Shown: in pieces, positions 25,601 through 60,701 of the stretch
Layout: every line of letters begins with the position of its first letter
Numbering within the stretch: position 1 is the stretch's first letter
Source of the DNA: Acidobacteriota bacterium
GTDB taxonomy: Bacteria; Acidobacteriota; Thermoanaerobaculia; Thermoanaerobaculales; Sulfomarinibacteraceae
Reading direction: 5' to 3'
DNA: 64,000 bases
Assembly: GCA_022340665.1 (NCBI GenBank)
Contig: JAJDNM010000148.1
Coordinates: forward strand, 1 to 64,000
Notes under the pieces: generated by a model
Told to the model about the DNA's origin: nothing
What the model saw: the letters and a program-made list of their open reading frames with translations, nothing else
Database searches by the model: none
Made by a program: the position numbers and the translations under genes

Positions 25601-25608
25601 TTGTCATA

Positions 25609-25619
25609 TGGTCAGACCA
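25609..25619. promoter_or_regulatory. GntR-type operator, perfect palindrome TGGTCAGACCA
   Basis: An 11-bp perfect palindrome that satisfies the FadR-subfamily GntR consensus TNGTNNNACNA. It lies just after the predicted -10 box and 18 bp before the gntR start codon, which suggests autoregulation of the operon by the encoded GntR protein. Confidence 0.7.
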
Positions 25620-25636
25620 ATTGGAGCGAAATCGGA

Positions 25637-31422: not shown

Positions 31423-31423
31423 G

Positions 31424-31465
31424 GGATGAATCAGGAATGAGGAATGAGGAATGAGGAATGAGGAA
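31424..31465. repeat. GGAATGA heptamer tandem repeat
   Basis: The 7-bp word GGAATGA is repeated about five times between gnd and the PfkB kinase gene, within an otherwise tight operon. Confidence 0.8.
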
Positions 31466-31510
31466 TTCCCGACCGCCCACCCCGAGAATGAGCTGGAAAG
31501 GAATACTCGA

Positions 31511-36696: not shown

Positions 36697-36772
36697 TTGG
36701 AACGTTGAACGTTTGAAGGTTGAAACGTTCTAACGCTAAACGTTTAACGTTGAACGTTCAACGTTCTAACGT
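36697..36772. repeat. GTTGAAC/GAACGTT heptamer repeat
   Basis: A run of 7-bp words related to GTTGAAC and their complements, about ten units with drift, lies between the GH2 gene and the YyaL gene. The last residues and stop codon of the YyaL protein (TLER, stop at 36758) are encoded inside it. Confidence 0.75.
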
Positions 36773-38974: not shown

Positions 38975-39010
38975 CCGAACGTTCGAACGTTCAACGTCAA
39001 AACGTCACAA
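38975..39010. repeat. GAACGTT heptamer repeat remnant
   Basis: About five units of the same word as at 36697-36772, in the spacer between the YyaL gene and the metallophosphatase gene. Confidence 0.65.
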
Positions 39011-39039: not shown

Positions 39040-40197
39040 TCAGTTCAGGACGAACTTCTTGCGGAGTTCGTACGGTCCGCCGCGGGCGTCGTCTCGGTAG
39101 ATTTCCACTGTGACCTCTTCCGTGCCGACGGTCACCCGGAAGAATGAGGATCGCGTATGGCCGCGGTAATGGATCTGCTCCTCGAAGTAGCGCCCGCGCG
39201 CCTCGGGGTCTTTCGTGTACTCGGTGTAGAACTGCGCCAGCGTCTGGGTGACGGGCTGTTCCTCCATCCCGAGGTACTTCATCCATCGGTCGATGTGGTA
39301 GGCGTCATCGCGGTAGAGTTGACGCAGGGAGTCTGCCTCGCCAATGCCATGAGCTTGACCCTCGTTGAGGGCGTTATCGATCGCCGCGTACATCTGGTCG
39401 GCATAGGATGCGTCCTCGATGCCTCGAGCATGGCCAGGGTCGAGCTGCCAAAGCCCGTTGATCTTGGCGTACGAGGTGTTATGGGTGTGGCCGCAGATAT
39501 AGGCATCGACGTCGTACCTCAGAAGCAGCTGATGGAAGGCGAAGGCGTTCTCGGGATCTTCATCGAGTGAGTCCCCCTGGTGGCGAATCCGTCCGTTGTC
39601 CATATCGGGCATCGGCAGGATCGGTTCGTGTCCGAAGACGAAGATCCTCTCTTTTTCCGTCGAAGCCAGGTCCCGTTCCAGCCATTCCAGCAGCTCGGGT
39701 ACGAGCTCGCCCTCGAGACTCCAGTCCCTGGTCCCGTCGAAGTACTGATTGAGTACGACGAAATGCGCGTCTTCCCAATCGAAGGAGTAGGTGGTCTCCT
39801 CGCATCCTTCCGGGCCGCGGTTGACCACGTGTGGCACCGTCTGGCCGTACTTGCGCATGTACTCCATGGTCGATGGCGACTCGGGTTCGTGGTTGCCGAT
39901 AACCACGTACCAGGGGTACTCCTCTCCGAGCGTTGCATCGATCAGCTCTCGGACCGCCCCCGGAGGGTGGACGTCGAGATCGCCGGGGCTGATCATAAAG
40001 GACCCCTGCCCGACTGCCTTGATCGCCTTGCAAGCGCCGGAGAAATGGGCGACGCCCTTGTCGCCGTGGGCGAAGTTCCGCATGTCCGCTGCGACGATGA
40101 AGACGAGGTCGCTTTCGGCGGCAGCCGCCGCACCTGCCGCCGACACGACTCCGGCCAGCATCAATCCTACGACAACAGCCGATGATCTTTTCGACAT
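39040..40197 (-). CDS. Secreted calcineurin-like metallophosphoesterase
   Basis: Exported phosphatase of 385 residues: signal MSKRSSAVVVGLMLAGVVSAAGAAAAA. The two-metal site is seen as D in VAADMRNF, ISPGDLD, VIGNHEPE, FGHEPI and ICGHTHN. Start ATG 40197 is 3 bp after the stop of the PhoD gene, so both phosphatases are co-transcribed behind the inositol genes. With phytase outside the cell it could complete dephosphorylation of inositol phosphates. Substrate is inferred. Confidence 0.88.
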   Translation of the reverse strand: MSKRSSAVVVGLMLAGVVSAAGAAAAAESDLVFIVAADMRNFAHGDKGVAHFSGACKAIKAVGQGSFMISPGDLDVHPPGAVRELIDATLGEEYPWYVVIGNHEPESPSTMEYMRKYGQTVPHVVNRGPEGCEETTYSFDWEDAHFVVLNQYFDGTRDWSLEGELVPELLEWLERDLASTEKERIFVFGHEPILPMPDMDNGRIRHQGDSLDEDPENAFAFHQLLLRYDVDAYICGHTHNTSYAKINGLWQLDPGHARGIEDASYADQMYAAIDNALNEGQAHGIGEADSLRQLYRDDAYHIDRWMKYLGMEEQPVTQTLAQFYTEYTKDPEARGRYFEEQIHYRGHTRSSFFRVTVGTEEVTVEIYRDDARGGPYELRKKFVLN

Positions 40198-40200
40198 CTC

Positions 40201-41640
40201 CTAATCCTCCGGTTCGATCTCGTAGTAGCCCTTGCCGGCGTCGAAAAACTCCTGGCGTTGCCTCGAACTTTCATCAACCTTTTCGGGCCACGAGACGACT
40301 CCGTTGACGAGCTCGTCGGCACGGACGACGAAGGGCTCCCAAACGTTGCGCCCGTGGATGTCGATGATGCGGTACATGAGGCGCGGCGATTCATCGAATA
40401 TGAAGTCAATAACACCGACGCTGCTGCCCTTGAAGTAGACGGGACGGATGCGCCGTTCCGGCCGTCTGTGGAGCCAGCTGTCGGGGTTGCGCTGCGCGAG
40501 CGGTGAGCTGACGAGGTCGTAGTAGTCGTAGCCGCCCTTTTCGGACCACGGGATGACGTTGAGCTCACCGATGTGCGAGTCGCCCGAAGCGAGAACGACA
40601 CCGGAAATCTCCTGATCGCGAATGAAATTGAAGAGGCGGTCACGCTCATGGAGGAAGGCCGCCCAGGAATCTCCGCCCTCGCCCTTCGCCTTGCTGAATC
40701 CGCTGCCGGACACGATGACCTTGAAGATCGCTGTGCTGGCGGCGAGCTCGTTCTCCAGCCATGTGAACTGAGCGGGGCCGAGCATGGTCTTCTCGGGTGT
40801 GTCCGGGTCCGAGTTGGGATCGCGGTAGAAACGGTCGTCGACAAAGAAGAAATCGACCTCACCGTAGCTGTAGGTGAAAAAGACGCCGGGGACATCCGGC
40901 AGGCCGTACGACGGATTCGCCCAGTAGTCCTTGAAGACTTCGAGCGCTTCGAACTTGATTGGATTGGTGCGGTCGTGGTTGTTGAGAGCGAAGTCGTGAT
41001 CGTCCCATACCGCGAGATGGGGGGTGTTGTGCAGAAGAGGCTGCAGTCCGGGTACGTCGCGCTGCCGCCGGTATTCCTCGCGGAGGATGTCCGGGTCGAG
41101 GGTGTCGCCGTAGATGTTGTCGCCGATCCAGAAAAAGAGGTCCGGTTCGAAGCTTGAAATCACCGGCCAAATCGGCTGTACCCGGTCGTCCTGGAACTTC
41201 GGACACGATCCGAATGCAATGCGGAACGATGCGGGAGTGCCTTTCGGGGGTGCGGTCGTGAAGCGGAAGGCCGGGTACTCGCTCAGGTATTTGTCGCCTT
41301 CGCCGTTGACCAGGACCCGGTAGAAATACTCTGTGGCTGGCGCAAGGTCCGTCAGCGTGACGACTACAACGTAGTCGCTGGCTTTGCTCGCCACGACTGC
41401 AGCGGTTGTCTTCGCCGACTTCATTTCCCAATCAGTCGCGAATTGGATGGCGACCGAGTACTCACCCGTGGTCCGCGCCCAGATCCTGGCCTCGGAGGGC
41501 GAGACGGCACCCACCATCGGCCCCTGCATCAATCTCGGATAGCCTTCATCGTTTCGCCCGGCCGCGACTGTCGGAGAAGCGAACGCCACCCACAGCAGAA
41601 GAAGAATGATCGATGCGAGAATGTCTGATCGTGAATTCAT
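40201..41640 (-). CDS. phoD: PhoD-like alkaline phosphatase
   Basis: Exported phosphodiesterase/phosphatase of 479 residues. Signal peptide DILASIILLLLWVAFASPTVAA; then an N-terminal fibronectin-like domain (MVGAVSPSEARIWARTTGE) and the metal-binding core with FWIGDNIYGDTL, AVWDDHDFALNNHD and SGDSHIGEL. AAGGAG six bases before ATG 41640 fixes the start. It is 13 bp after iolO and just before a second metallophosphatase. PhoD enzymes cleave phosphomonoesters and diesters, so inositol phosphates or phosphatidylinositol-type diesters are plausible. Confidence 0.88.
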   Translation of the reverse strand: MNSRSDILASIILLLLWVAFASPTVAAGRNDEGYPRLMQGPMVGAVSPSEARIWARTTGEYSVAIQFATDWEMKSAKTTAAVVASKASDYVVVVTLTDLAPATEYFYRVLVNGEGDKYLSEYPAFRFTTAPPKGTPASFRIAFGSCPKFQDDRVQPIWPVISSFEPDLFFWIGDNIYGDTLDPDILREEYRRQRDVPGLQPLLHNTPHLAVWDDHDFALNNHDRTNPIKFEALEVFKDYWANPSYGLPDVPGVFFTYSYGEVDFFFVDDRFYRDPNSDPDTPEKTMLGPAQFTWLENELAASTAIFKVIVSGSGFSKAKGEGGDSWAAFLHERDRLFNFIRDQEISGVVLASGDSHIGELNVIPWSEKGGYDYYDLVSSPLAQRNPDSWLHRRPERRIRPVYFKGSSVGVIDFIFDESPRLMYRIIDIHGRNVWEPFVVRADELVNGVVSWPEKVDESSRQRQEFFDAGKGYYEIEPED

Positions 41641-41653
41641 CACCGCTCCTTGT

Positions 41654-42466
41654 TCAATGGGGGATGACCGTTTTGAGGTGGCTGATTCCGCGTTCTGCCG
41701 CGGTATCGGCGTCGGGCAACGGCATGAACTCACCCGATACGAAACCCTTGTATCCGGTGTTTGTGAGCTCGTCGAGGATCGTGCCGAAGTCGAGGTGGCC
41801 AGCGCCCGGGTGCCATCTATTCGAATCGGCGACGTGAAAATGAAAGATGCGGTCTCCGCAGGCGCGGATACTGTCGCAGATATCGGGCTCCTCGATATTC
41901 ATGTGGAATGTGTCGAGAAGGAGCCCGAAGTTGCTGGCGCCGACCTTTTCCACCAGCTCGAGTCCCTCGTCAGCGGTATGGACGAGGTCGGTCTCGTACC
42001 GGTTCAGAGGTTCGAGTGCGAAGCGGACGGAAGATCCCTTTGCGGCCGCTGCGCATCTCCGAATGGCATGGACAAGGTAAGCCATTGACTGTTCGTGAGT
42101 CTGGTCCTCCGGAGTAATGCCTCGAATCAACCCGAGGATGACGATCGCGCCGAGACGCTCAGCGAGAGGGATGTGACTGACGACTCGTTCAATGGCCGCG
42201 GCCCTGATTTCCGGGTCGTCGCTGGTGAAAGACAGTCCCTCCTCGCCCCAGGCCTGGCCGGTGCCGATAGCCGGCACGACCAGGCCACATTCAGAAACGA
42301 CTCGTTCGAGCTGGCCGATGTTCACCAAATCTGGATCCCGCACGGCCAGTTCGACGCCGTCGTATCCCCAGGATGCGATCTTGGCGACGTTCGCCTCGAA
42401 GTCACCCTTGAAGGCCACCGCCTGGAACGCGGCGGCGTGGGTTGACAGCACGACGCTGAGTTTCAT
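41654..42466 (-). CDS. iolO: IolO-type 5-keto-L-gluconate epimerase (forms D-tagaturonate)
   Basis: TIM-barrel sugar epimerase of 270 residues, xylose-isomerase-like family. Metal ligands expected: E152 in FALEPLNRYETD, D185 and H188 in LLDTFHMNIEE, H211 in FHFHVADSNRW and E246 in VSGEF. The N-terminus MKLSVVLSTHAAAF and the segments VELAVRDPD, GTGQAW and HVADSNRWHPGAGH closely follow TM0416 of Thermotoga maritima, as I remember that sequence. TM0416 (IolO) makes D-tagaturonate from 5-keto-L-gluconate in the last step of a non-classical inositol route. No strong ribosome site precedes ATG 42466, 10 bp after iolN. Cytoplasmic. Confidence 0.86.
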   Translation of the reverse strand: MKLSVVLSTHAAAFQAVAFKGDFEANVAKIASWGYDGVELAVRDPDLVNIGQLERVVSECGLVVPAIGTGQAWGEEGLSFTSDDPEIRAAAIERVVSHIPLAERLGAIVILGLIRGITPEDQTHEQSMAYLVHAIRRCAAAAKGSSVRFALEPLNRYETDLVHTADEGLELVEKVGASNFGLLLDTFHMNIEEPDICDSIRACGDRIFHFHVADSNRWHPGAGHLDFGTILDELTNTGYKGFVSGEFMPLPDADTAAERGISHLKTVIPH

Positions 42467-42476
42467 CGGTCGTTGC

Positions 42477-43592
42477 CTAGCTCTGACCGATCTGCGGTAG
42501 CTGGTAGACCGGCTTCCATCCATCGCTCAACGGCTCGCGGAGATAGGGCTCCATCTCGGCCTCGGTCCGCAGGGTGACCTCTTCGACCGGAGGAACCGTC
42601 CCTGGCGGGAATACCTCGAGGATCTGATCGTTGAGCAGGGTCAGGTACTTCAAGATGGCCGCCACCGGGCGCTTGGCCTTTTCCGCTGCGCCGTGGGTCG
42701 ACTTGCCGACCACGCCTTCAGGTGTGGCTGCAATCTCGATTGCGAAGTGGCCCTCGCCTTCGGACCAACGGCTCGGCCGGCTGAACGGGTCAACCGACTT
42801 GTCGAAGTGGCCATCCGGAAGATAGCCCTTGCCTTGCGTGTCGACCGCGTAGTCCATATCCACCATGTCGGGGTGGAGAAGCAGCCCGAGTGAGGTCTCC
42901 GACTCGTCGGCGTGGACGAAGTTGGTGTCCATCTTGCCGCCCTTGGGGCCGGTGCGGAAGAATTCGCGCACCGCGCGGTGCCAGTCGATGACTCGGAAGA
43001 TGCCTGGAAGCTGATAGCGCTTCTGGAACTGCTGGATCGCCGATTCGAGCATCCACAGGTGGCCGTGGTTGTTGATCAGCACCTGTTTACGAAAGCCGTC
43101 GTTCCATAAGCCCAGCATCACGTCGATCAGGAACTCGCGGGCGACGTTCTCGCGCACGATCACGGTGCCCGGCATTCCGAGGTGGTGGTAGGGGTGAGAA
43201 CCGTAGTTGAGGGGGGGTAGAGCGAGGCTGACAGGATCGCCGCGTTTGGCGGTGAATCGGCGCAGCCCCTCGAGGATCTGGCTCACGTAAAGCGTATCCG
43301 ATGCGCTGGGAAGGTGGCGGCCGTGCAGCTCGGTACAGCCGACCGGAATGAAGACGATGTCGTTCTTGCGGCGTTCCGCCTCGACCTGGTGGCGCACGGT
43401 GGTTTGGATGTAGGAGCCCGCCTTGCCCCACTCGCAGGGTGATGGGATGCCATAGTCGGCGAGGATGGCATCGATGTCCTCGTCGCTCGCGTCCCACACT
43501 TCTTTTTTGCACCTGCCAACCGTGTTGTCCTCGAAGAACAAATCCGGTTCGCTGGTCGCCAACAATTTTGGATCTTCTGGAAAGTCTGTCAT
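42477..43592 (-). CDS. iolN: IolN-type hydrolase, creatininase family
   Basis: Creatininase-fold metallohydrolase of 371 residues. Metal residues: E88, H90 and H93 in GCTELHGRHLP, then D99 in SASDT; further ligands likely in HADESETSLGL. The extra 75-residue N-terminus (WDASDEDIDAIL) is not found in creatininase. In Thermotoga the homologue TM0413 (IolN) opens the diketo-inositol ring to 5-keto-L-gluconate; the neighbours here (IolM, IolO, IolG) are the same set. GGGAG six bases before ATG 43592 fixes the start. Cytoplasmic, no signal. Confidence 0.84.
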   Translation of the reverse strand: MTDFPEDPKLLATSEPDLFFEDNTVGRCKKEVWDASDEDIDAILADYGIPSPCEWGKAGSYIQTTVRHQVEAERRKNDIVFIPVGCTELHGRHLPSASDTLYVSQILEGLRRFTAKRGDPVSLALPPLNYGSHPYHHLGMPGTVIVRENVAREFLIDVMLGLWNDGFRKQVLINNHGHLWMLESAIQQFQKRYQLPGIFRVIDWHRAVREFFRTGPKGGKMDTNFVHADESETSLGLLLHPDMVDMDYAVDTQGKGYLPDGHFDKSVDPFSRPSRWSEGEGHFAIEIAATPEGVVGKSTHGAAEKAKRPVAAILKYLTLLNDQILEVFPPGTVPPVEEVTLRTEAEMEPYLREPLSDGWKPVYQLPQIGQS

Positions 43593-43661
43593 GTGTTGCT
43601 CCCTGGTTCGTTTCGATCGCACTCTCATGCCCGCGGTTCGCGGGCGGGTTGGTTGTTCTCC

Positions 43662-44672
43662 TCAGCCAATCTCCACCGGTGCGCCGGTCTGGATCGATTG
43701 ACGGGCTGCAATGGCGACTGCTAGCGTCGTCAAACCGTCCTGACCCGTCACCGGCGATTCGGTGTCGTCGACGACACAGTCCACAAAGGACTGCAGCATT
43801 GTCACGAAGGCGTCTCCCATGCGTTCCGGGGTAGTGAAGACGGCGTCGTGGTGCGCACCCGCCTTGTCCAATAGCCGGACCGGCGTCTTCTGAAGCCGTC
43901 CGACCTGGACGGCGCCCTCCTCACCGATCACCTCGCCGCGCAGATCATGTCCGTAGCGGGTGGTTCGGCTGGCGGTGAGAGTGGCCATCGCGCCGCTCGC
44001 GAACCGCGCGCTGACGACTGCGTTGTCAACATCGCCAACCAATCCCACGTCGGCGTCGATCAGAGCGTCGCCCTCGCCATATACCCGGATGATCTCGTCG
44101 GCCATTAACCAGCGACCGAGGTAGATGTCGTGATACATGGAGTCGAGGATGAGACCACCGCTGACCGCGAGATCGGCAAACTCGGGTGGGGGAGGGTCGA
44201 CGTCTCCGCTGATCGACCGATAGAGGACGGGTCGTCCGATGGCACCGGACGCGATGAGCCTCATCGCCTCCTGATAACCGGCATCAAAACGACGCGTATG
44301 CCCCATCATCAGCTTGATACCCGCCTTCTCCACGGCGTTCACGGCACGGCTGCACTCGTCCAACGACAGGCCGAGAGGTTTTTCACACAGAATATGGAGT
44401 CCGGCGGCGGCGCATCGCTCGACATTTCCGATGTGTGCCGAAGTGCTGCTGGAAATGATCACCGCATCCAGCGACTCAGCCTCGATCAAGCGATCGAGGG
44501 TGTCATAGACCGGCACGGCGCCGCAGCGCCGGCGGACGGATTCCGCCCGCTCGGCACTGGACGTCGTCGCGGCGACAAGCCGTGCACCGCGAGTGAGATG
44601 GGCGAGGTTTTCGGCGTGGGTCAATCCCATTCGGCCCACGCCGACGACGGCCATTCGCAGTTCGCGATCCAC
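43662..44672 (-). CDS. Gfo/Idh/MocA family dehydrogenase (third, inositol operon)
   Basis: NAD(P)-dependent oxidoreductase of 336 residues. Rossmann loop VVGVGRMGLTHAENL near the N-terminus, the EKP lysine in LCEKPLGLSLDE and D/H in LDSMYHDIYLGRW. Starts at GTG 44672 with AGGAG seven bases before. It lies between iolM and iolN on the inositol transcript. It shares general IolG architecture but is less like the two tandem paralogues at 48-50 kb, so it may act on another inositol isomer or a keto-inositol. Function within the pathway is not certain. Confidence 0.86.
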   Translation of the reverse strand: MDRELRMAVVGVGRMGLTHAENLAHLTRGARLVAATTSSAERAESVRRRCGAVPVYDTLDRLIEAESLDAVIISSSTSAHIGNVERCAAAGLHILCEKPLGLSLDECSRAVNAVEKAGIKLMMGHTRRFDAGYQEAMRLIASGAIGRPVLYRSISGDVDPPPPEFADLAVSGGLILDSMYHDIYLGRWLMADEIIRVYGEGDALIDADVGLVGDVDNAVVSARFASGAMATLTASRTTRYGHDLRGEVIGEEGAVQVGRLQKTPVRLLDKAGAHHDAVFTTPERMGDAFVTMLQSFVDCVVDDTESPVTGQDGLTTLAVAIAARQSIQTGAPVEIG

Positions 44673-44698
44673 CGCTTCTCTCCTACCCCTGATCCGCT

Positions 44699-45856
44699 TC
44701 AGTTCGGCTTGACCAGGATCTTACCGTCGGTTCGATCGATCGACTTGGCGATCGCGGCCACGGTGTCGTCGAGGCCGTACTTCGCGGTGATGATCGGGCT
44801 CAGATCGATGCGGCCCGACGCCACCATGCGGATCACGTTCGGGAAGGTCTCGTGACCAGAGTGCCCCTGGGCGCCGTAGGCCTGGGCGCGGCGGACCTGA
44901 AACGCCTCGAGATACATCGGCACACGTTGCGCCGCACGACCGATCTGGACAATCTTGCTGTTGATCGCGAGTCCCCTTTCCATCTCCGGAATCATCAGGT
45001 GGGGAACGCCGGCCGCTTCGACGTGAAAGTTGAATCCCTCGCCCTTGCTGAGCTCCATCAGGACGTCACCCGCAGACACTTCGCGCGGATCGTAGACGAA
45101 GTCCGCTCCGACTGCCTTGGCCAACTCACGCCGTTGAGGCGACACCTCGAAGGCGGCAATGGTGCTCGCACCGCCCGCCTTTGCAAGCGCTATCGCAGCC
45201 AACCCGATCGGTCCGGCGCCGACCACGTTGACGAAGTGCCCGGGTCTGAACCCACCGGCCCGCTCGAACATGGCGTTGTAGGCGACGCAGGTCGGCTCGG
45301 TCAGTGCGGCCAGCTCGTAGGCTTTTTCCTCGCTGCCGACCCTCTCGGCGATGGCGTCGATCTTCCAGCAGAACTTCTCGTCGACCGCGATGTAGTTGGC
45401 AAAGGCACCGGGAATGGTGAAGCCGATCTCCTCGAGGTTGGTGCAGTGGTTGGGGTAACCGTTACGGCAGGGGATACAGCGGCCGCACCAGATCATCTCC
45501 TCGACGGTCACCATGTCGCCTGGTTGGAGGAGTGTGACGTCCTTGCCGACCTCCGCGACCTTGCCCGAGAACTCGTGGCCGAGAATGGTCGGGAACTTGG
45601 TCAAACCCGGGTAGAGGATATAGTTGTCATCGTCCGTCTCGTAGAAGTGCATGTCGGAACCGCAGACGCCGCACGCCTGGATCTCGAGAAGGACTTCGTT
45701 GGGACCCGGTGTCGGATCCGGCCAGTCCTTGACCTCGAGCGTCGGGTTGTGCCAGATGGCGTTGCCGGTGATGGCTTTCCCGGTCTTCTTTTCCCAATCG
45801 GAAACCGTGTAGTCCGGTTTCGGCTCCCACTTCGCATCCAAAACCATACCTTTCAT
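44699..45856 (-). CDS. iolM: IolM-type zinc-dependent dehydrogenase (2-keto-myo-inositol dehydrogenase)
   Basis: Medium-chain alcohol dehydrogenase of 385 residues. Catalytic zinc ligands C65 (ACGVCGSD), H94-E95 (GHEFSG); structural zinc cysteines C124, C127, C130 and C138; NAD loop VVGAGPIGLAAIALA near 212. N-terminal AKWEPKPDY, DNYILYPGLT, VEEMIWCG and GAQGHSGHETFPNVIRMVASG match TM0412 of Thermotoga maritima (IolM) as I recall it. IolM oxidises 2-keto-myo-inositol. AAGGAGG seven bases before ATG 45856. It lies 52 bp behind the PfkB gene. Cytoplasmic. Confidence 0.87.
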   Translation of the reverse strand: MKGMVLDAKWEPKPDYTVSDWEKKTGKAITGNAIWHNPTLEVKDWPDPTPGPNEVLLEIQACGVCGSDMHFYETDDDNYILYPGLTKFPTILGHEFSGKVAEVGKDVTLLQPGDMVTVEEMIWCGRCIPCRNGYPNHCTNLEEIGFTIPGAFANYIAVDEKFCWKIDAIAERVGSEEKAYELAALTEPTCVAYNAMFERAGGFRPGHFVNVVGAGPIGLAAIALAKAGGASTIAAFEVSPQRRELAKAVGADFVYDPREVSAGDVLMELSKGEGFNFHVEAAGVPHLMIPEMERGLAINSKIVQIGRAAQRVPMYLEAFQVRRAQAYGAQGHSGHETFPNVIRMVASGRIDLSPIITAKYGLDDTVAAIAKSIDRTDGKILVKPN

Positions 45857-45908
45857 GACGTGCCTCCTTTTGCATTTTCACGACGTCTGTCCGACATCGG
45901 TAGGATTT

Positions 45909-46820
45909 CTAGGTAGTCGGTTGAACTCCTTTGTAGGTGTTTTCGAGAAGCTCGACGATCGCTTCGTACGGTCTTCGAATCGGCCCGGGGGCCTCCATCT
46001 TCAGACTGGTGGTCGCGGCCGACCAGTAGAGTGCCTCCTCGGGCGGTCGGTCGAGCCGGGCCGCGACGTAGGAACCGACACAGGTATCGCCGCGACCGCT
46101 GCGGCCGAGCATTGATTTCGCGTGGAACTCGGCTTCGAAGACCCGGTCTTGGGCGAGCAGGAAGATCCCATCGCCATGAGTGATGATGACCTCCCGGGGG
46201 CCCTGCGCCGCGAGCGATCTCGCCGCCCTCTCCATGTCCGTCTCACCGGTCAGGGCCTCGGCCTCGACGACGTCTGCCTTGAGTATGTCCACCAGTTCCA
46301 GCACATCTCCCTGTTCGGGCCATGCGACGTGTTCGAGCCGGCCGTCGGGCCTGCGAACGCGGATGAAGCCTTGCGCGTCGGCGCTGATCATCGATTTCTT
46401 GCTGCGCAGTTCCCGGATCGTTTCGATCGGCATCTCCCCGCGGATGGATGGGCTGATGATGAATGCCCTGGCGTTGATCGTGCGCACCTGCTCCGGGGTA
46501 AACGACCCGGCGGTGTCCGCCACCGTCAGAATCCGTTGGTCGGGATTGTCGGTCGGATACTCCAGGCGCATCAGGGTCGAGCTCGGGGTTGCAGTGGCGA
46601 AGACTGTGACCCCGAATTCTTCGAGGCTCCGAACGACGTGGAAGTCCTCCTTGGCCAGCCTCGTGACGGCTGCAACATCTTGACCGAGGGTGTGAGCCGC
46701 GTGGGCCGAGTAGGTGACGCCGCCGCCATCGGCTTGGAGCGTGCCGCCTTTGGTGATGATCGTGTCCTTGGTGTAGTTGCCGACCGTCGCGACGTCGAAA
46801 ACGTGTGTGTCGTCAGACAT
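45909..46820 (-). CDS. PfkB-family kinase, TM0415-like, inositol operon
   Basis: Ribokinase-fold kinase of 303 residues. Catalytic base in GRSGRGDTCVGSY near 254-265, and ISADAQGFIRVRRPDGR near 166 and TSLKMEAPGPIRRP near the C-terminus. These segments match TM0415, the unassigned kinase that sits in the Thermotoga inositol cluster between iolG and iolO. The conserved neighbourhood argues for an inositol-derived substrate, but none is established. GAGGAG five bases before ATG 46820. A longer frame running into the transporter gene is a shadow. Confidence 0.85.
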   Translation of the reverse strand: MSDDTHVFDVATVGNYTKDTIITKGGTLQADGGGVTYSAHAAHTLGQDVAAVTRLAKEDFHVVRSLEEFGVTVFATATPSSTLMRLEYPTDNPDQRILTVADTAGSFTPEQVRTINARAFIISPSIRGEMPIETIRELRSKKSMISADAQGFIRVRRPDGRLEHVAWPEQGDVLELVDILKADVVEAEALTGETDMERAARSLAAQGPREVIITHGDGIFLLAQDRVFEAEFHAKSMLGRSGRGDTCVGSYVAARLDRPPEEALYWSAATTSLKMEAPGPIRRPYEAIVELLENTYKGVQPTT

Positions 46821-46828
46821 GTTGCTCC

Positions 46829-48178
46829 TCAATCCCTCATGCGCACCCGCCAGAGCGAGGTGGCGAGGATGAACGAAAGCACCGATGATCCGACCCAGAA
46901 CCAGATCACGGTCGTGAAGTCGTAATGCCGGATTCCGTCGATCATGGTGATACCGCGCTCGATCAGATGGCCGCTGATCTGGTCCTGGAGGGCGGCCCCG
47001 ATATACGAGAACACGCCGATGAATCCCATCGCCGCCCCGGCCGCCCGCTTGGGGGCGATGTCGAGGGCGAAGAGGCCACCGAGCGAGGTCACGAGCCCGG
47101 TCAGACCGAAACCGTAGATGAAGAACGCCACGGTCATGAAGAGCGGCTTCCCGGGCGGGCCGAAGAAGACCATCAGCAGACCGGCGATCTCCATCGCCGC
47201 GAAGATGACATTCGTCGGCGGACGACGCGCGTTGAAAACCTTGTCGGAAGTGAAACCGAAGGCCACCGCGCCGAGGATTCCGGCGATGGTGTTTACCGAG
47301 ATAATGGCGCCCGCCTGCATCAGCGTGTAGCCCTTGGCCTCCTGAAGGTAGAGCACGCCCCAGCTGTTGATCGCGTAGCGGGTGACGTAGATCGAGGCGC
47401 TCGCGAGCGCCAAGACCCATATCGCGGGGATCTTGAGGATCGTCCGCTGAACGGCCCACGTACTTTCTTTCCTGTGCTGACTCCCTTCATCCGAACTGAC
47501 GAAGTCGTCCTTCCATTCGGCGATCCTTGGTAGGCCGAGAGTTTGTGGCCGGTCCTGCATCAGGAGGTAGAGCCCGAAGGCCACCACAATGCAGATTAAT
47601 CCCGGGCCCCAAAACCCGGCCCGCCATCCCCACAGGGTCACGAAGCCGGCCACGCCGACAAAGGTCAGACCCTCGCCGATGGCGTGGGCGGTGCTCCAGA
47701 TGCCGTACATCCGACCGCGCTCTTTGTTCGAAAACCACGTCGCCAGAGCCACCGCTCCGGTCGGAGCGCCGAATCCCTGGAACCACCCGTTGAGACCCCA
47801 GAGAAGGACGGAAAGCCAAAGGATGGTCGAGAAGCCCATGCCGATGTTGATCAGGGCTGAGACCAGAACTCCGAAAGCGAAGAAAAGCTTGAGGTTCATG
47901 TGGTCGGCGAGGAATCCGTTGGTCAGCTTGCCGAATGCGTAGGTGTAGAACAGTGCCGAGCCGATGATCCCGAGCTCGACCGGGGTGAAGATGCCACCGT
48001 CGATCAGCGGTTTCTTGACCATCGACAGGGCCAGGCGGCAGGTGTAGACGAGGCCGTAGCCGATGGTAATGGCGAGCATGATGCGGACTCGATGCCGCCT
48101 GTACAGACTGTCGACGCGGTTCTGATCCTCGATCAGCGGCCGATCCTCGCCGGTGAGAAACCCGCGGAGGAGGCTCAT
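46829..48178 (-). CDS. MFS transporter, organophosphate:phosphate antiporter (OPA/GlpT-like)
   Basis: Twelve-helix inner-membrane transporter of 449 residues. TM1 carries YTCRLALSMVKK and TM7 VTRYAINSWGVLYL, so both arginines that bind phosphate in GlpT are present. Other OPA features: GLNGWFQGFGAPTGAVALATWFSNKERGRMYGIW. OPA carriers exchange phosphate for phosphorylated compounds. In this operon an inositol phosphate, or a phosphorylated keto acid, is the natural candidate; the Thermotoga route is also reported to be linked to inositol phosphate uptake. Its start overlaps the stop of the IolG gene upstream (ATGA). Confidence 0.85.
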   Translation of the reverse strand: MSLLRGFLTGEDRPLIEDQNRVDSLYRRHRVRIMLAITIGYGLVYTCRLALSMVKKPLIDGGIFTPVELGIIGSALFYTYAFGKLTNGFLADHMNLKLFFAFGVLVSALINIGMGFSTILWLSVLLWGLNGWFQGFGAPTGAVALATWFSNKERGRMYGIWSTAHAIGEGLTFVGVAGFVTLWGWRAGFWGPGLICIVVAFGLYLLMQDRPQTLGLPRIAEWKDDFVSSDEGSQHRKESTWAVQRTILKIPAIWVLALASASIYVTRYAINSWGVLYLQEAKGYTLMQAGAIISVNTIAGILGAVAFGFTSDKVFNARRPPTNVIFAAMEIAGLLMVFFGPPGKPLFMTVAFFIYGFGLTGLVTSLGGLFALDIAPKRAAGAAMGFIGVFSYIGAALQDQISGHLIERGITMIDGIRHYDFTTVIWFWVGSSVLSFILATSLWRVRMRD

Positions 48179-49173
48179 GGCGCCTCGACCTTCACCGGCC
48201 GGTTTTCGGCCATCGACTGGGCGGCCGCGAGACCGACCAGGACCGACATCAATCCGTCGCGCCCGCCGACCGTTGGCTCGTGATCATCACGAATGCTGGT
48301 AAAAAAGGACTCGAGCTCGGCGACGAACGACGCCTGGTAGCGCTCGAGAAAGAAGTACAGCGGCGTGTCAGCGCTGACGCCGTCGGCACGGTTCATTACG
48401 ACCCGGTTGGCGGTTTCGTTGCCCGCCTCCGCGCTGCCCCTCGAGCCGAAAACCTCGACCCGCTGGTCATAACCGTAGACTGCCTGGCGGCTGTTTTCGA
48501 TTACCGCCAGCGCGCCGTTGGCCATCTTGAGGGTCGTCACGGCCGTGTCCACGTCCCCGGCCTTACCAATGGCCGGGTCGATCAGGACAGCTCCCATAGC
48601 GTGCACTTCCTCGACCTCGCTGCCGGTCAAATACCGGACCATGTCGAAGTCGTGAATCGTCATATCGAGGAAGATGCCGCCCGAGCTCTGAACGTACTCG
48701 ACGGGAGGGGCCTCCGGGTCGCGCGAGGTGATCTTGACGATGTGGATGTCGCCCACGTCACCGTCGGTCACCGCCTGCCGGACCCGTGAAAAGGTCGGAT
48801 CGAATCGCCGGTTGAAACCCACTTGCAGCTTGACGCCCGCGACGTCGACCACATCGATTGTGCGCCGGATCCGCTGCGGGTCGAGGTCTATCGGCTTTTC
48901 GCAGAAGATGTGCTTGCCGGCGGTGGCGGCGGCCTCGGTGAAATCTGCGTGGGTCGGAGTCGGCGAGCAGATCAGGACTGCCTCGATGTCCGGGTCATCG
49001 AGCACCAACGACGGGTCGATTCCAGTCTCGATGCCCTCCGGCGGCCATGCACTGAAATCCGCGTAGGGATCGGCGATCGCTTTCACCCGCACGCCGGCCA
49101 TACTCAACAGATTTTCAGAATGGAGGCGGCCGATCCTACCGGCCCCCAGCACGCCCACGGTAATCGTCTTCAT
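48175..49173 (-). CDS. iolG: Inositol 2-dehydrogenase-like Gfo/Idh protein (second of tandem pair)
   Basis: NAD-dependent dehydrogenase of 332 residues. Rossmann loop VLGAGRIGRLHSENL, catalytic K in FCEKPIDLD, and D/H in FLDMTIHDFDMVRY. The segment LQVGFNRRFDPTFSRVRQAV is typical of IolG. About half its residues seem shared with the neighbour at 49170-50204, so the pair looks like a tandem duplication. It overlaps both neighbours by ATGA. It should make 2-keto-myo-inositol from myo-inositol, or act on scyllo- or chiro-inositol. Confidence 0.85.
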   Translation of the reverse strand: MKTITVGVLGAGRIGRLHSENLLSMAGVRVKAIADPYADFSAWPPEGIETGIDPSLVLDDPDIEAVLICSPTPTHADFTEAAATAGKHIFCEKPIDLDPQRIRRTIDVVDVAGVKLQVGFNRRFDPTFSRVRQAVTDGDVGDIHIVKITSRDPEAPPVEYVQSSGGIFLDMTIHDFDMVRYLTGSEVEEVHAMGAVLIDPAIGKAGDVDTAVTTLKMANGALAVIENSRQAVYGYDQRVEVFGSRGSAEAGNETANRVVMNRADGVSADTPLYFFLERYQASFVAELESFFTSIRDDHEPTVGGRDGLMSVLVGLAAAQSMAENRPVKVEAP

Positions 49174-50204
49174 GCAGTTGTCCCTTCGCCGGCGATCGGG
49201 GAGTTCTCCGTCAGCCGGACGGGCCGATTCTGGTCGAATGATTTTCGGGCGGCGACCGCTACGCGGACGGCGGCGAGGGCATCCTCCGCGCTGGCCACGA
49301 CCGGGTTGTTCTCTCGCACCGCGGTCAGAAAACTGCGCAGTTCGGCAACGAAAGCCTCCCGATAGCGGGAAACAAAGCCGTCGTGAGGCGTTCGGCGGAC
49401 CACGCCACCGGTGGTGCTGACCACGCGAGTACTGGGAATCGTGTTGTCGACTGCGACGCTGCCTGCGGAACCGAAGACTTCGAATCGTTGATCGAGGCCG
49501 TAGACCGCCTGCCGGCTGGCATCGATCACGGCCAGGGCGCCGTTGGCCAGACGCGCGGTCACGGTTGCGGTGTCGATATCGCCGGCGGCGCCGATCTCGG
49601 GATCGATGAGCACGGCGCCGGTGGCGAAGACCTCGACTATTTCCGAGCCCGAAAGGAATCGAACGGCGTCGAAATCGTGGATGAGAAAGTCTAGGAAGAT
49701 CCCGCCCGACCGCTTCACGAAATCGATCGGCGGCGCCTTCGGATCACGATTGGTGACCCGCACCGTGTGGACCTCTCCAATTTGGCCATCACGAACCGCT
49801 CCGACGAGGTCGAGGATGCTTGGGTCGGAGCGGCGGTTGAAGCCGACCTGGAGCTGAACACCGGCGGCACTCGCGGCCTGGATCGCCGCCTCGATCGGTC
49901 CTTCTTCGAACCCGACCGGTTTTTCACAGAAGATATGTTTGCCCGATGCTGCGGCCTCCTGGATCAGCTCACTGTGAAGACCGGAGGGGGCGGCGATGAC
50001 GACCGCATCAATCTGGGGATCGCCGAAGACCGTTGCGTTGTCGGTCGAGCAGATGGGGATCCCGAGCTCTCTGGCCCAGTCTTCATCCAGGTGTGGGCTC
50101 GCAACCGCCCGCACCTCGGCCTCCGGTACGAGGTGGGTGAGGTTCTCGGCGTGCATCCTGCCGATCCGGCCTGCCCCGATGACACCGACCGTCGTGTGTT
50201 TCAT
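49170..50204 (-). CDS. iolG: Inositol 2-dehydrogenase-like Gfo/Idh protein (first of tandem pair)
   Basis: NAD-dependent dehydrogenase of 344 residues with loop VIGAGRIGRMHAENL, catalytic FCEKPVGFEE and FLDFLIHDFDAVRF. Same architecture and core strings as the downstream paralogue (LQVGFNRRSDP, NGALAVIDASRQAVYGLDQRFEVFGSAGS). Opens the enzymatic part of the operon, 146 bp after the TonB receptor gene. Which of the two paralogues is the myo-inositol enzyme cannot be said. Cytoplasmic. Confidence 0.86.
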   Translation of the reverse strand: MKHTTVGVIGAGRIGRMHAENLTHLVPEAEVRAVASPHLDEDWARELGIPICSTDNATVFGDPQIDAVVIAAPSGLHSELIQEAAASGKHIFCEKPVGFEEGPIEAAIQAASAAGVQLQVGFNRRSDPSILDLVGAVRDGQIGEVHTVRVTNRDPKAPPIDFVKRSGGIFLDFLIHDFDAVRFLSGSEIVEVFATGAVLIDPEIGAAGDIDTATVTARLANGALAVIDASRQAVYGLDQRFEVFGSAGSVAVDNTIPSTRVVSTTGGVVRRTPHDGFVSRYREAFVAELRSFLTAVRENNPVVASAEDALAAVRVAVAARKSFDQNRPVRLTENSPIAGEGTTA

Positions 50205-50350: not shown

Positions 50351-53050
50351 CTACAGGTCGAACCTCACACCCAGGGTTGCCCACCAGCCGTAGTACTCCT
50401 GCTGCCGAATGCGGTCGGCGACTCCCTCGAAGACCGTATACGGTTCGTTGGTGATATTGATGGCCTCCAAGACAACGCTGAACTCGTCAGAGATCTGGAC
50501 CCGCAACAGGAAATCGAGCTGGGCGTGGTCGTCGACCCAGAGATCCTCCTCGGGATCTCCCCCGACCTCGAGGATGTTCTTGCCGTTGAAGTTGTAGGAG
50601 AGTCGGGTCGAGATGCCGTACTTCTCGTACGAGATTGCGAGGTTGGCGACGTTCTCCGCCTGCCCCGGCAGTGGTCCAGATTCGCGGTCGGGGTACTTGC
50701 CTTCGGAGTCGACGTAGGTGTAGTTGCCGTAGAGACCGAAGCCGCCCCAAAAACCGGGCCAGCTGGTGAAGTTGTTCTGGAAAGCGACCTCGACACCCCA
50801 CAGGTCCCCTTGCTCGCCGTTGCGCGGCTGAGTGATCTCGAACTCCTCACCGTCGACGATCTCGTCGACGTTGTAGAAGAAGATGTAATCCTTCAATTCC
50901 TTGTAGAAGACGCCGGCAGAGATGATGCCGAGCGGCTGCAGGTACTGCTCCCACATGAGATCGAGGTTCCACGATGTGGTGACATCGAGGTCCGGGTTGC
51001 CGAGCTCGATCTCCATGTCCTCGATGTTGAGCAGGCGCCACGGCGCCATGTCCTCGAAGTTCGGTCGCGCGAGGCTGCGGGTGACCGCAGCTCGAAGCTG
51101 GGAATTGTCGCCGGTCTTGTAGACGAGGTGGAACTGGGGCAGCCACTCCGTGTAGCTCTTGTCGCCGGTGACTGGCATCAGATCGAGAGGGTCTCCCTCC
51201 TCATCGAGGACCAGTTCATACGCCGTGTAATCATCCTTCGTGCTTTCGACCCTGACGCCGCCGAGGAATGACGTCCTCGCTCCGAAGAGGAGCTCCGTCA
51301 TGGCGTAGGCTGCATACGTATCCTCGTCGATCCCGAAGTCCGCCAGGTCCTCTTCGAGGTCCTTCTCGCCTTCGAGATCTCCGCTTGCCAGCAGTTCGCG
51401 CATCATGCCGGGGTCTTGGAAGGGTGTGATTTCGTCGTCATAGCGGCCGAGAAAGAACGAGGTTTCGGATTGCCAATCGTTCAGGAAGGGTACGAAGTTG
51501 AGATCGTCGTCCGACTCGTATTTTGAAACCTCGTAGTTCTGCACCTTTTCTTTGAGGCGGGCCTTCGCGCCGAACTTCCAGAGGCCGCTGAATCCGGCGT
51601 CCCTGTAAAAACCTCGGGTGAGGTTGAAGGCACCGACGTAGTCCTTGTCGGTCGCCTTCTTGTACTCGGTTTCAAGTTCATCGAACCAGTATTCGGCTGG
51701 GTCCTCGTTCAACGGGTTGGCCTGGATGTTATTCGGGTTGATCGAGCCGGGGCTGACGTTGGGGTTGAACTCCACATCCTCCTGGATGAAGGCCGCGGTG
51801 ACCTGGTTCGGTGTTTCCTCGGAGGACTTGTTCCAGGCCACGTGATAGTCGATGACGGTCGACTCGCCGACGTTGTTTTCGCCCCTGAAGGTAATGGAGT
51901 TGATCCAAGATTCCTGCCGCCGGTCCCGGGTGGCCCGCTCGAGCTCGTTGTCGCCGACCGCGTTGTTCTTCGCGCGCCGGATCTCGGTGTCGATGTAGTT
52001 GGTGTAAAGGCCGCGCAGGGAGTAGCTGGAGCCATTGGAGGCGCGGTAGTCCAGGTCGCCGGTGGCCCCGTAGCGCTCCCGCTGAATCGTGTAGTCGCGC
52101 ATCTGGAGCTCGTCGAGCTCTCCGTCGTCGTACTCGGGCTCAATGTTGTCCGAGCCGGCCTTGCGGTCGGCGCCGCTACCGGAGATCAGCAGCCCCCAGT
52201 CCTTGTCGGCGCCGAAGCGGGTGCCGAATGTGAGCTGTGCAGTTGGCGCGGATCTGTCGGTGATCTCGTTGTAGACCCCGCCGAGGGCAGCCGAAACCCG
52301 GGTCTCGTCGGGCGCCTGCGAGGTGACCAAATTGACAGTGCCGCCAATCGAGTCGCCGTCCATATCCGGGGTCAGGGCCTTCGACACCTCGATCGCCGCC
52401 AGGAGATCCGCCGGGATGGTGTCGAGGGCAATGGTCCGGATCCCGGCTTCGGACGACGGGATGCGCTCGCCGTTGACGGTGGTTGAATTGAGCCGCGCTT
52501 CCGTGCCGCGAATCATGACGTACCGTCCCTCGCCCTGGTCACGCAGCAGGCTGACAGCGGGGATCCTTTGGGTGGCCTCGGACGCGTTTTTGTCCGGGAA
52601 GCGCCCTATCTGGTCGGAGGCAACGATGTTCGTGATATTCATCGCGTTCTTCTGCCGGTTGAGCGCCTTGGCCTGACCAACCAGCAGCGGTGTGCCGCGA
52701 ACCTCGATCTCGGCGGCATATGCGAGGGCCATGTCGAGACTGGCGGTCTGCCCGGCAACGACCATGACGGCGGATGTTGCCGACTGAAGGCCGAGGTACT
52801 CGAACACGATGGTCTGGGCACCTGGGGGTACGGTCTTCAACGTGTACGATCCGTCAGCGTTCGTCACGGTTTCCAGGTTGGTGCCCTGCACGGTCACCCG
52901 GACATCTGACACCACATCGCCCGCGGGACTGGTCACCGTTCCACGAATGGCACCAGTGCCCGACTGGGCTCGGACCGTCCCGGGCGCTGCAATCACGATG
53001 ACCAGAACGGCCATCAACGCGATCCATCGAAACTCTTTCAAGGACATCAT
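50351..53050 (-). CDS. TonB-dependent outer-membrane receptor with carboxypeptidase-regulatory domain
   Basis: Outer-membrane transporter of 899 residues. Signal peptide (LMAVLVIVIAAPGTVRAQS), then a CarboxypepD_reg-like beta-sandwich (GAIRGTVTSPAGDVVSDVRVTVQGTN), plug domain with SEATQRIPAVSLLRDQGEGRYVMIRGTEARLNSTTVNGERIPSSE, and a long beta-barrel ending YGWWATLGVRFDL. AGGAGG seven bases before ATG 53050. It heads the inositol/phosphatase run and faces the LacI regulator with shared operators, so uptake of phytate or inositol phosphates across the outer membrane is likely. No SusD partner is encoded nearby. Confidence 0.9.
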   Translation of the reverse strand: MMSLKEFRWIALMAVLVIVIAAPGTVRAQSGTGAIRGTVTSPAGDVVSDVRVTVQGTNLETVTNADGSYTLKTVPPGAQTIVFEYLGLQSATSAVMVVAGQTASLDMALAYAAEIEVRGTPLLVGQAKALNRQKNAMNITNIVASDQIGRFPDKNASEATQRIPAVSLLRDQGEGRYVMIRGTEARLNSTTVNGERIPSSEAGIRTIALDTIPADLLAAIEVSKALTPDMDGDSIGGTVNLVTSQAPDETRVSAALGGVYNEITDRSAPTAQLTFGTRFGADKDWGLLISGSGADRKAGSDNIEPEYDDGELDELQMRDYTIQRERYGATGDLDYRASNGSSYSLRGLYTNYIDTEIRRAKNNAVGDNELERATRDRRQESWINSITFRGENNVGESTVIDYHVAWNKSSEETPNQVTAAFIQEDVEFNPNVSPGSINPNNIQANPLNEDPAEYWFDELETEYKKATDKDYVGAFNLTRGFYRDAGFSGLWKFGAKARLKEKVQNYEVSKYESDDDLNFVPFLNDWQSETSFFLGRYDDEITPFQDPGMMRELLASGDLEGEKDLEEDLADFGIDEDTYAAYAMTELLFGARTSFLGGVRVESTKDDYTAYELVLDEEGDPLDLMPVTGDKSYTEWLPQFHLVYKTGDNSQLRAAVTRSLARPNFEDMAPWRLLNIEDMEIELGNPDLDVTTSWNLDLMWEQYLQPLGIISAGVFYKELKDYIFFYNVDEIVDGEEFEITQPRNGEQGDLWGVEVAFQNNFTSWPGFWGGFGLYGNYTYVDSEGKYPDRESGPLPGQAENVANLAISYEKYGISTRLSYNFNGKNILEVGGDPEEDLWVDDHAQLDFLLRVQISDEFSVVLEAINITNEPYTVFEGVADRIRQQEYYGWWATLGVRFDL

Positions 53051-53193: not shown

Positions 53194-53205
53194 TGGAACG
53201 TTCCA
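53194..53205. promoter_or_regulatory. LacI operator O1, TGGAACGTTCCA
   Basis: A 12-bp perfect palindrome with the central CG typical of LacI/GalR-family sites. It ends 2 bp before the predicted -35 box of the lacI promoter. Its centre lies 44 bp (about four helix turns) from that of O2. Confidence 0.8.
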
Positions 53206-53207
53206 CC

Positions 53208-53236
53208 TTGAAAATCAACGTTCCAGGGTTTATATT
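53208..53236 (+). promoter_or_regulatory. Sigma70-like promoter of lacI
   Basis: TTGAAA and TATATT with 17-bp spacing. A half-site AACGTTCCA (53217-53225) falls in the spacer. Operators on both sides indicate autoregulation. Confidence 0.65.
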
Positions 53237-53252
53237 TTGGAACGTTCCAAAA
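53235..53252. promoter_or_regulatory. LacI operator O2, 18-bp perfect palindrome
   Basis: TTTTGGAACGTTCCAAAA is a perfect 18-bp palindrome containing the same 12-bp core as O1. It overlaps the end of the -10 box and the likely transcription start. Confidence 0.82.
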
Positions 53253-53268
53253 GGAACATAGGGCCTGA

Positions 53269-54387
53269 ATGGAGCAAAGTCAAGTGTCACCACGAGGAAA
53301 ACCGAAACCGCAACAGTCGCAAAGCAGGCCGACGATTCACGATGTCGCGCGACGTGCGGGAGTTTCGAAATCTCTGGTGTCGATGGTGACGCGCGGCGAG
53401 GATGGGGTCAGCGCCGAGAAGCGCGAGGTGATCCTCAAGGCGATCGAGGAGCTCAATTACCGGCCGAACGTACTGGCGCGAAGTCTTGTCGAACGCCGCA
53501 CTCGCATTCTCGGTGTGATGATTTCAGACCTCAGGAACCCGTTCTTCGGGGGTGTGGTGTCGGGAATTCAGGGCCGTGCGGCGGAGCTCGGATACCGCGT
53601 TCTTTTCAACACCGGGGATCGACAACGAGAACTCGAAGAAGAGGCGATCGAGAGTTTTCTCGATTTGAGCGTCGACGGGCTGGTGCTCGCATCACCGAGA
53701 GTCGACGACGAGTTTATTGCCCGCGCCGGGCACTCGGTCCCGATCGTGGTTTTGAACCGCAACACGATCGATGACTTGAGTGACAGTGTGACAAACGACA
53801 ACATCGCCGGCGCCCGGCTCGCGGTCGAGCACTGCGTGAGCTTCGGACATGAAAGGATCGCGTTTATCAGCGGTGGTGACAGCGCTGCGGCGCAGGTCCG
53901 ACGCGAGGGTTATTTGAGGGCGATGCGCGAGTTCGACCTCGCTGACGACATCCTGATCGTCGAAGGCGTGCATACCGAGGAGGGCGGTTTTCGGGGCGCC
54001 CGAGAGCTGCTCAAAATGAAGTCCCTTCCGACGGCCGTATTCGCTTCCAACGACCTATGCGCCATCGGAGCGATGAACGCCCTCGAGGAGGCCGGCTTGA
54101 CGATCCCCGACGACCTCTCAGTGGTCGGCTACGACAACACGACCCTGGCCGCGCTGCGCCACATTGACCTGACGAGCGTCGATCAGCCGGGAAACGTCAT
54201 GGGGCGATCCGCGATCGACCGGATTGCTGAACGCATCAACGGTGAGAGGCTCACCCCACGCCACGATGTGGTTGCTCCCAGCATCGTGGTTCGCTCGACG
54301 ACCGGCCCGCCGCCCGACCAACGGAAGGGTGTCACACCCTCGACCAAACCTTTCGAGAACACGAGCCATCTCAATGGTAGTGAGTGA
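53269..54387 (+). CDS. LacI/GalR-family transcriptional regulator
   Basis: Repressor of 372 residues. After about 15 polar residues the helix-turn-helix and hinge read TIHDVARRAGVSKSLVSMVTRGEDGVSAEKREVILKAIEELNYRPNVLARSL. Then comes a periplasmic-binding-protein-like effector domain (GVMISDLRNPFFGGVVSGI, VDGLVLASPR, SVVGYDNTTLAALRHIDLTSVDQP). The hinge leucine/serine pattern LARSL fits binding to a central CG, as in the palindromes found upstream. Divergent from the TonB receptor and upstream of the phytase gene, so inositol, inositol phosphate or a pathway intermediate is the probable inducer. Confidence 0.92.
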   Translation: MEQSQVSPRGKPKPQQSQSRPTIHDVARRAGVSKSLVSMVTRGEDGVSAEKREVILKAIEELNYRPNVLARSLVERRTRILGVMISDLRNPFFGGVVSGIQGRAAELGYRVLFNTGDRQRELEEEAIESFLDLSVDGLVLASPRVDDEFIARAGHSVPIVVLNRNTIDDLSDSVTNDNIAGARLAVEHCVSFGHERIAFISGGDSAAAQVRREGYLRAMREFDLADDILIVEGVHTEEGGFRGARELLKMKSLPTAVFASNDLCAIGAMNALEEAGLTIPDDLSVVGYDNTTLAALRHIDLTSVDQPGNVMGRSAIDRIAERINGERLTPRHDVVAPSIVVRSTTGPPPDQRKGVTPSTKPFENTSHLNGSE

Positions 54388-55550: not shown

Positions 55551-55620
55551 ATTCGGATCCTCGTGTTGCACTCATTCAGGCGCCGGTTTGCGCGACGCCC
55601 GTGATTGGGAGGACGGACGA

Positions 55621-60600: not shown

Positions 60601-60701
60601 TGGTGGGTGATTGTAGGACGGTTTCCACCGCCGGGGGCGGTCGCGGACTCGGACTTGGCTGCGGGATAGGGCATAATCCAGAGACACAAGAGGAGGCCAG
60701 C

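Follow-up and report, generated by a model that had tools for sequence, protein, structure and literature searches.

We analysed a window of 64,000 nucleotides (positions 1 to 64,000 of contig JAJDNM010000148.1) from an Acidobacteriota bacterium. The source assembly, GCA_022340665.1, is a 3.95-Mb draft genome of an uncultured organism and is 96.88% complete; it was searched family by family with protein family models. The window contains a minus-strand run of inositol (iol) genes, a divergent arm that begins with a LacI-family regulator and, 15 kb from the run, a plus-strand cluster of hexonate enzymes (Table 1). Neighboring genes of the run overlap by a few bases or are separated by tens of bases, an operon-like arrangement. 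Here, we examine whether these genes make up a locus for the use of phytate and inositol.

An earlier reading of the sequence (the first-pass annotation) had proposed a Thermotoga-type inositol gene set comprising IolG-like dehydrogenases, a TM0412-like zinc dehydrogenase (IolM), a creatininase-fold IolN, an IolO with all of its metal residues, and a TM0415-like kinase, all on the minus strand. The genes were found on that strand where they had been placed, and IolM, IolN and IolO each scored above the NCBIfam equivalog cut-off (450, 245 and 300 bits, respectively). Two IolG paralogues exceeded theirs (355 bits), but the third IolG-like dehydrogenase fell below it, so that the IolG assignment stands for two of the three. 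The active sites of IolG and IolN, the metal site of IolO and the zinc motifs of IolM are intact, and residues E100, H102, D111, H188 and E242 of IolN are invariant. Among solved structures, the best match to IolO was TM0416 (2zvr, 1e-71), and that to IolM was 3ip1, an entry named "Alcohol dehydrogenase, zinc-containing," which we take to be a Thermotoga zinc dehydrogenase. The closest structure to the second IolG paralogue, 3ezy, is presumably TM0414. IolN matched only creatininase-fold entries in the PDB. Together, the curated models, the Thermotoga structures and a gene order conserved across several phyla (see below) support the assignment of the Thermotoga-type set.

Table 1. Predicted genes and sites in the window. 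Model scores and cut-offs are in bits.
Feature	Position	Strand	Evidence
TonB-dependent outer-membrane receptor, signal peptide	50351-53050	-	TIGR01782 (NCBIfam) 494.6, cut-off 310; Pfam; first in iol run
IolG paralogue 1, inositol 2-dehydrogenase	49170-50204	-	TIGR04380 390.3, cut-off 355; EKP and DxxIHD motifs
IolG paralogue 2	48175-49173	-	TIGR04380 443.4, cut-off 355; closest Thermotoga dehydrogenase structure 3ezy, 2e-100
MFS transporter, UhpC/GlpT/PgtP (organophosphate:phosphate antiporter, OPA) family	46829-48178	-	NCBIfam, Pfam
TM0415-like ribokinase-family kinase, predicted pyrophosphate-dependent inositol kinase	45909-46820	-	Start taken as MSDDTH
IolM, scyllo-inosose 3-dehydrogenase (zinc)	44699-45856	-	NF041097 541.8, cut-off 450; 3ip1, 1.6e-102
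IolG-like dehydrogenase 3	43662-44672	-	TIGR04380 308.7, under cut-off 355; catalytic motifs retained
IolN, 3-dehydro-scyllo-inosose hydrolase, creatininase fold, long subfamily	42477-43628	-	NF041098 305, cut-off 245
IolO, 5-keto-L-gluconate epimerase	41654-42466	-	NF041099 339.5, cut-off 300; start taken as MKLSVV
PhoD-family secreted phosphatase/phosphodiesterase, signal peptide	40201-41640	-	PF09423 90.6; motifs; start MNSRSD
Secreted calcineurin-like metallophosphatase	39040-40197	-	PF00149
Predicted LacI operators: two exact TGGAACGTTCCA palindromes (53194-53205, 53238-53249) and a half site	53194-53252		
LacI-family regulator	53269-54387	+	Divergent from iol run
Beta-propeller phytase, lipoprotein signal	54420-55550	+	PF02333 166.8
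HAD hydrolase, 3' of phytase	55450-56247	+	True start probably ~55561
GntR/FCD regulator	25601-26344	+	PF07729, PF00392
UxaE, tagaturonate-fructuronate epimerase	26341-27897	+	PF16257 497; sole copy in genome
SDR, predicted fructuronate reductase forming D-mannonate	27894-28676	+	PRK08277 D-mannonate oxidoreductase 265, cut-off 281
LarA-superfamily hexonate 2-epimerase, predicted D-mannonate to D-gluconate	28682-29968	+	Best PDB match 4nar, 1.6e-60
Gnd, decarboxylating 6-phosphogluconate dehydrogenase	29968-31423	+	TIGR00873 777.8, cut-off 426.7
PfkB kinase, predicted gluconate kinase by position	31451-32587	+	Nearest solved structure KDG kinase 2afb

The IolN of the window belongs to a separate long subfamily and shares about 38 to 39% identity with the proteins that reach about 500 bits on the IolN model. 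Genomes with the latter were considered as better Thermotoga-type examples and set aside: in the two loci examined (L136, genome G196; L139, genome G085), no iol genes lie within several kilobases. L136 has a gene of the LarA family nearby, along with a zinc dehydrogenase and an IclR regulator. The IolN model may take in proteins of a second function.

The receptor and secreted phosphatases that had been counted as part of the run are present, but at 50351-53050 and 39040-41640 they lie just outside the interval 41654-50204. The MFS carrier is 71 to 91% identical to its counterparts in the operons of relatives and is the probable inner-membrane importer of inositol or an inositol phosphate.

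The kinase in the run is TM0415-like, as had been suggested; its best solved-structure match is TM0415 itself (7e4l/1vk4, ~1e-42). A set of five residues (K171, F221, R229, R232 and M266), together with an RxGRGD motif, has been published as the signature of pyrophosphate-dependent ribokinase-family enzymes (Nagata et al., PMC5931981). All five residues and the motif are present in the window kinase, as are the three acceptor residues compared (D11, Q141 and R145). These features are common to TM0415, a pyrophosphate-dependent myo-inositol kinase (PMC5931981). Because the full signature is present, the window kinase is predicted to phosphorylate an inositol with pyrophosphate, a property that the first-pass annotation had missed. 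Among its orthologues, M266 varies in some and F221 in one, from the Chloroflexota locus L064.

The classical iol genes had been described as absent. This held for IolE, which gave no matches in the genome in a search where the controls were positive, and for IolD, for which the single match (115.7 bits; cut-off, 715) scored as an ordinary related enzyme would, rather than a true IolD; IolB, IolJ and IolC were not searched for. The outcome of this genome search, which the first-pass annotation had itself proposed, favors the Thermotoga-type reading.

The divergent arm provides a likely regulator and a likely food source. Only two copies of the palindrome TGGAACGTTCCA are present in the genome, and both fall in the interval that separates lacI from the receptor gene. 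Related loci totaling 1.1 Mb contain 10 copies, every one of them in the gap between lacI and tonB (L050, L051, L052 and L054). This is strong footprint evidence for an operator, which the LacI protein of the window presumably binds to exert repression. As a separate observation, TTGAACGTTCAA-like palindromes match the window nine times, compared with 1.5 expected, two of the matches being the LacI sites; others (36698-36768 and 38983-38994) lie upstream of a GH2 glycosidase gene and are possibly a related LacI-type operator.

The phytase, which had been left unconnected to the inositol genes, contains the YG, DxEG and DG elements of the published catalytic motif list (PMC12406696); the EGxxxD element reads EAIAVD (EAxxxD). 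Orthologues with 63 to 69% identity adjoin lacI in four Acidobacteriota relatives, the order lacI-phytase-HAD is retained in two loci (L127 and L129), and an orthologue lies near iol genes in one Ignavibacteria metagenome-assembled genome (MAG). Given the phytase, the receptor and the phosphatases, phytate is the likely food of this system. Adjoining the HAD gene (56225-59679) are a sugar ABC ATPase that resembles RbsA and a permease with its binding protein fused to it, which may form a second inositol importer; the ATPase has the same position in L127 and is near lacI in L054. Next to this transporter is a glycerophosphodiester phosphodiesterase (59716-60726), which could release inositol from glycerophosphoinositol.

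The route to D-tagaturonate that had been proposed is supported by these data, but it is incomplete, since the enzymes for the later steps are encoded 15 kb away in the window. The LarA-like protein of this lower cluster has T. maritima GntE2 as its best PDB match, an enzyme that forms D-gluconate from D-mannonate in vitro (PMC7583248). The GntE pattern of cofactor and catalytic residues with its HE(V/S) loop (D, R, H, H, E, V, K, H, W, K) is present in the window protein and 16 relatives. As it scored below the cut-off of the curated epimerase model (see below), we place the protein in the LarA superfamily as GntE-like and go no further. A palindrome upstream of the uxaE cluster, TTAACCATGGTTA, was dropped as a candidate operator; it had one exact match and no excess over chance.

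UxuA, UxuB/UxaB-type (Mannitol_dh_C) reductases and the PF01081 aldolase were not found in the genome, so the usual exit through 2-keto-3-deoxygluconate (KDG) and Eda is unavailable in its known form. D-Mannonate or D-gluconate might still leave through KDG if a dehydratase from a different family acted first, the PfkB protein phosphorylated KDG and an aldolase of the DHDPS type followed; the searches did not extend to dehydratases of the enolase and IlvD/Edd types or to aldolases of the DHDPS type. The nearest solved structure of the PfkB kinase is indeed a KDG kinase. We nevertheless consider such an exit doubtful, given the missing UxuA and PF01081 aldolase, the position of gnd directly 5' of the PfkB kinase gene and, in a related locus (L082), a gluconokinase-like FGGY gene standing in for the kinase gene between larA and gnd.

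To place the two clusters in context, bacterial and archaeal genomes were scanned with an IolN alignment, which gave 78 loci, 50 of them with the long form; these 50 are not mutually independent. IolM was encoded near IolN in 40 of the 50, as was IolO (also 40), in several phyla. This conserved order bears on the notion that the substrates of the dehydrogenases and IolO are other polyols or L-sugars, such as L-glucose or L-galactose via L-gluconate and 5-keto-L-gluconate. An IolO homologue (35% identity) does take part in L-glucose breakdown in Luteolibacter LG18 (PMC12632266). However, IolM and IolN, which are needed solely for opening the inositol ring, scored above their cut-offs and keep their order with IolO across phyla, and the locus also encodes a phytase, two IolG proteins above the cut-off and an inositol-kinase-type enzyme. 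We regard the L-sugar explanation as very improbable.

At least one of uxaE, larA and gnd lies near IolN in 19 of the 50 long loci, and both larA and gnd do so in 11. In L049 (Acidobacteriota), the order is iolM-iolG-iolN-iolO-phoD-metallophosphatase-uxaE-sdr-larA-gnd, and L049, L054 (Acidobacteriota) and L064 (Chloroflexota) share iolN-iolO-...-uxaE-sdr-larA-gnd on a single strand. The order in L082, from a Deltaproteobacteria MAG, is uxaE-iolM-iolN-iolO-sdr-larA-FGGY kinase-gnd-MFS-iolG. With its gluconokinase-like gene between larA and gnd, this run spans every step from inositol to ribulose-5-phosphate; the FGGY gene product scored 246 bits against a curated gluconokinase cut-off of 648.6, and gluconate is its likely substrate. 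A possible FGGY frame in a gap of L085 gave no clean reading and was set aside. A PfkB relative of the window kinase lies 3' of larA and gnd in six Chloroflexota loci. This gene order is our basis for treating the upper and lower clusters of the window as parts of a single pathway.

It is also conceivable that the upper pathway runs as described while the GntR-uxaE-sdr-larA-gnd cluster serves hexuronates (galacturonate and glucuronate), sharing only D-tagaturonate with inositol. The cluster has its own GntR/FCD regulator and stands 15 kb from the run, and a homologous T. maritima set has been described for hexuronate and pectin use (PMC7583248, PMC6978723). This explanation appears unlikely, because in seven related loci (L049, L052, L054, L055, L064, L082 and L085) the lower enzymes are encoded inside the iol run, in some right after iolO, and because the window cluster is without a hexuronate isomerase (UxaC was not searched for genome-wide). 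The lower cluster of the single pathway that we favor could serve hexuronates as well.

Three features of individual loci were recorded alongside. In L064 (16285-17208) and L086 (12008-12931), both from Chloroflexota, a gene for a HAD-family hydrolase separates the SDR gene from larA, a phosphofructokinase-family gene (PF00365) follows gnd in L054 (18124-19416), and two IolN copies about 5 kb apart are present in L108 and L110, from Thermoanaerobacterales/Tepidanaerobacteraceae MAGs. The nearest relatives of the window IolN are from Acidobacteriota (Thermoanaerobaculales, Candidatus Sulfomarinibacter), and these sequences are placed among those of Chloroflexota in the IolN tree. Identity to many Chloroflexota is 75 to 85% for IolN and IolM and about 50 to 65% for Gnd and LarA. 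Gene transfer between phyla is plausible.

We interpret these genes as a phytate and inositol utilization locus whose likely outlet leads from inositol by way of D-gluconate to ribulose-5-phosphate, which would make it a variant of the Thermotoga pathway, and put the probability of this reading at roughly 0.72. The surface phytase and the two secreted phosphatases would remove phosphate groups from phytate, inositol or a low inositol phosphate would enter through the TonB receptor and MFS carrier, and the LacI repressor acting on TGGAACGTTCCA would control both arms. Myo-inositol would be oxidized to scyllo-inosose by IolG and then to a diketone by IolM, whose ring would be opened by IolN to give 5-keto-L-gluconate; IolO would convert this to D-tagaturonate. 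UxaE would then yield D-fructuronate, the SDR D-mannonate, and the LarA/GntE-type epimerase D-gluconate, which the PfkB kinase, judged by its position, would phosphorylate to 6-phosphogluconate for decarboxylation to ribulose-5-phosphate by Gnd. The substrates, the direction of transport and the joint use of both clusters in this organism are what we infer from families, active sites and gene order. A broader proposal is that a complete path from phytate to the pentose phosphates, avoiding both the classical iol and the KDG/Eda routes, forms one transferable set across Acidobacteriota, Chloroflexota, Ignavibacteriota and Deltaproteobacteria; this we favor only slightly.

Several points weigh against the interpretation. 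In one study, T. maritima did not grow on inositol as the sole carbon source (PMC3750489), and the source organism of the window is known only as a draft genome. The LarA-like protein scored 181.9 bits with the group 18 hexonate model NF052594 (cut-off 500), and no member of LarA group 18 has been assayed (PMC7583248). No LarC (PF01969) was found in the draft genome, and the best LarE match there (TIGR00268) reached 33.9 bits against a cut-off of 150; these genes may lie in the unassembled part or have diverged too far to be recognized, or the nickel-pincer cofactor may have another source. The score of the SDR is just under its model cut-off, the PfkB kinase resembles a KDG kinase and not a known gluconokinase, and the lower cluster is set apart by the distance and regulator described above. 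Firmicutes and some Chloroflexota loci are without lower genes nearby and give no support for the extension.

Among the papers searched, IolM, IolN and IolO received no more than an incidental mention, and the evidence for the route comes almost entirely from Thermotoga. The present data extend it to uncultured mesophilic lineages, where it is linked with a phytase, an outer-membrane receptor and a conserved predicted operator. This allows the proposal that phytate supplies carbon as well as phosphorus. From the order of the genes, the whole route to ribulose-5-phosphate can be predicted, a LarA-type epimerase group in which no member has been assayed gains a physiological setting, and the PfkB family is predicted to include a new gluconate kinase.

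Of the known systems, the Bacillus-type iol pathway (IolG-E-D-B-C-J) has only the IolG step in common with this locus; its IolE is absent here, and no IolD exceeded the cut-off. The Luteolibacter LG18 lgu pathway (PMC12632266) shares the conversion of 5-keto-L-gluconate to D-tagaturonate by an IolO homologue and a pyrophosphate-using kinase, but unlike the route proposed here it has L-glucose or L-galactose as its starting substrate, and its last steps run via D-altronate, KDG and 2-keto-3-deoxy-6-phosphogluconate (KDPG) aldolase. From the Thermotoga hexuronate set, with its uxaE and gntE genes (Rodionova 2012, as cited in PMC6978723; Desguin 2020, PMC7583248), the locus has UxaE, a reductase, a LarA-type epimerase and a predicted phosphorylation of gluconate to 6-phosphogluconate. 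It differs in that UxuA, the UxuB/UxaB-type and PF01081 route, LarC and LarE were not found in its genome, PfkB replaces the gluconokinase, and the set is joined to inositol breakdown in relatives. The closest parallel is the T. maritima inositol pathway, TM0411-TM0416 (Rodionova et al. 2013, as described in PMC3750489 and PMC5931981). IolG, IolM, IolN, IolO and the TM0415 kinase likewise form one run here, and the reactions leading to D-tagaturonate are expected to follow in the same sequence. In contrast to T. maritima, which has the ROK regulator IolR and the InoEFGK ABC transporter, the window encodes a LacI regulator, an MFS carrier and a TonB receptor, and its run is distinguished by three IolG-like genes, an IolN of the long subfamily and an attached phytase and phosphatases.

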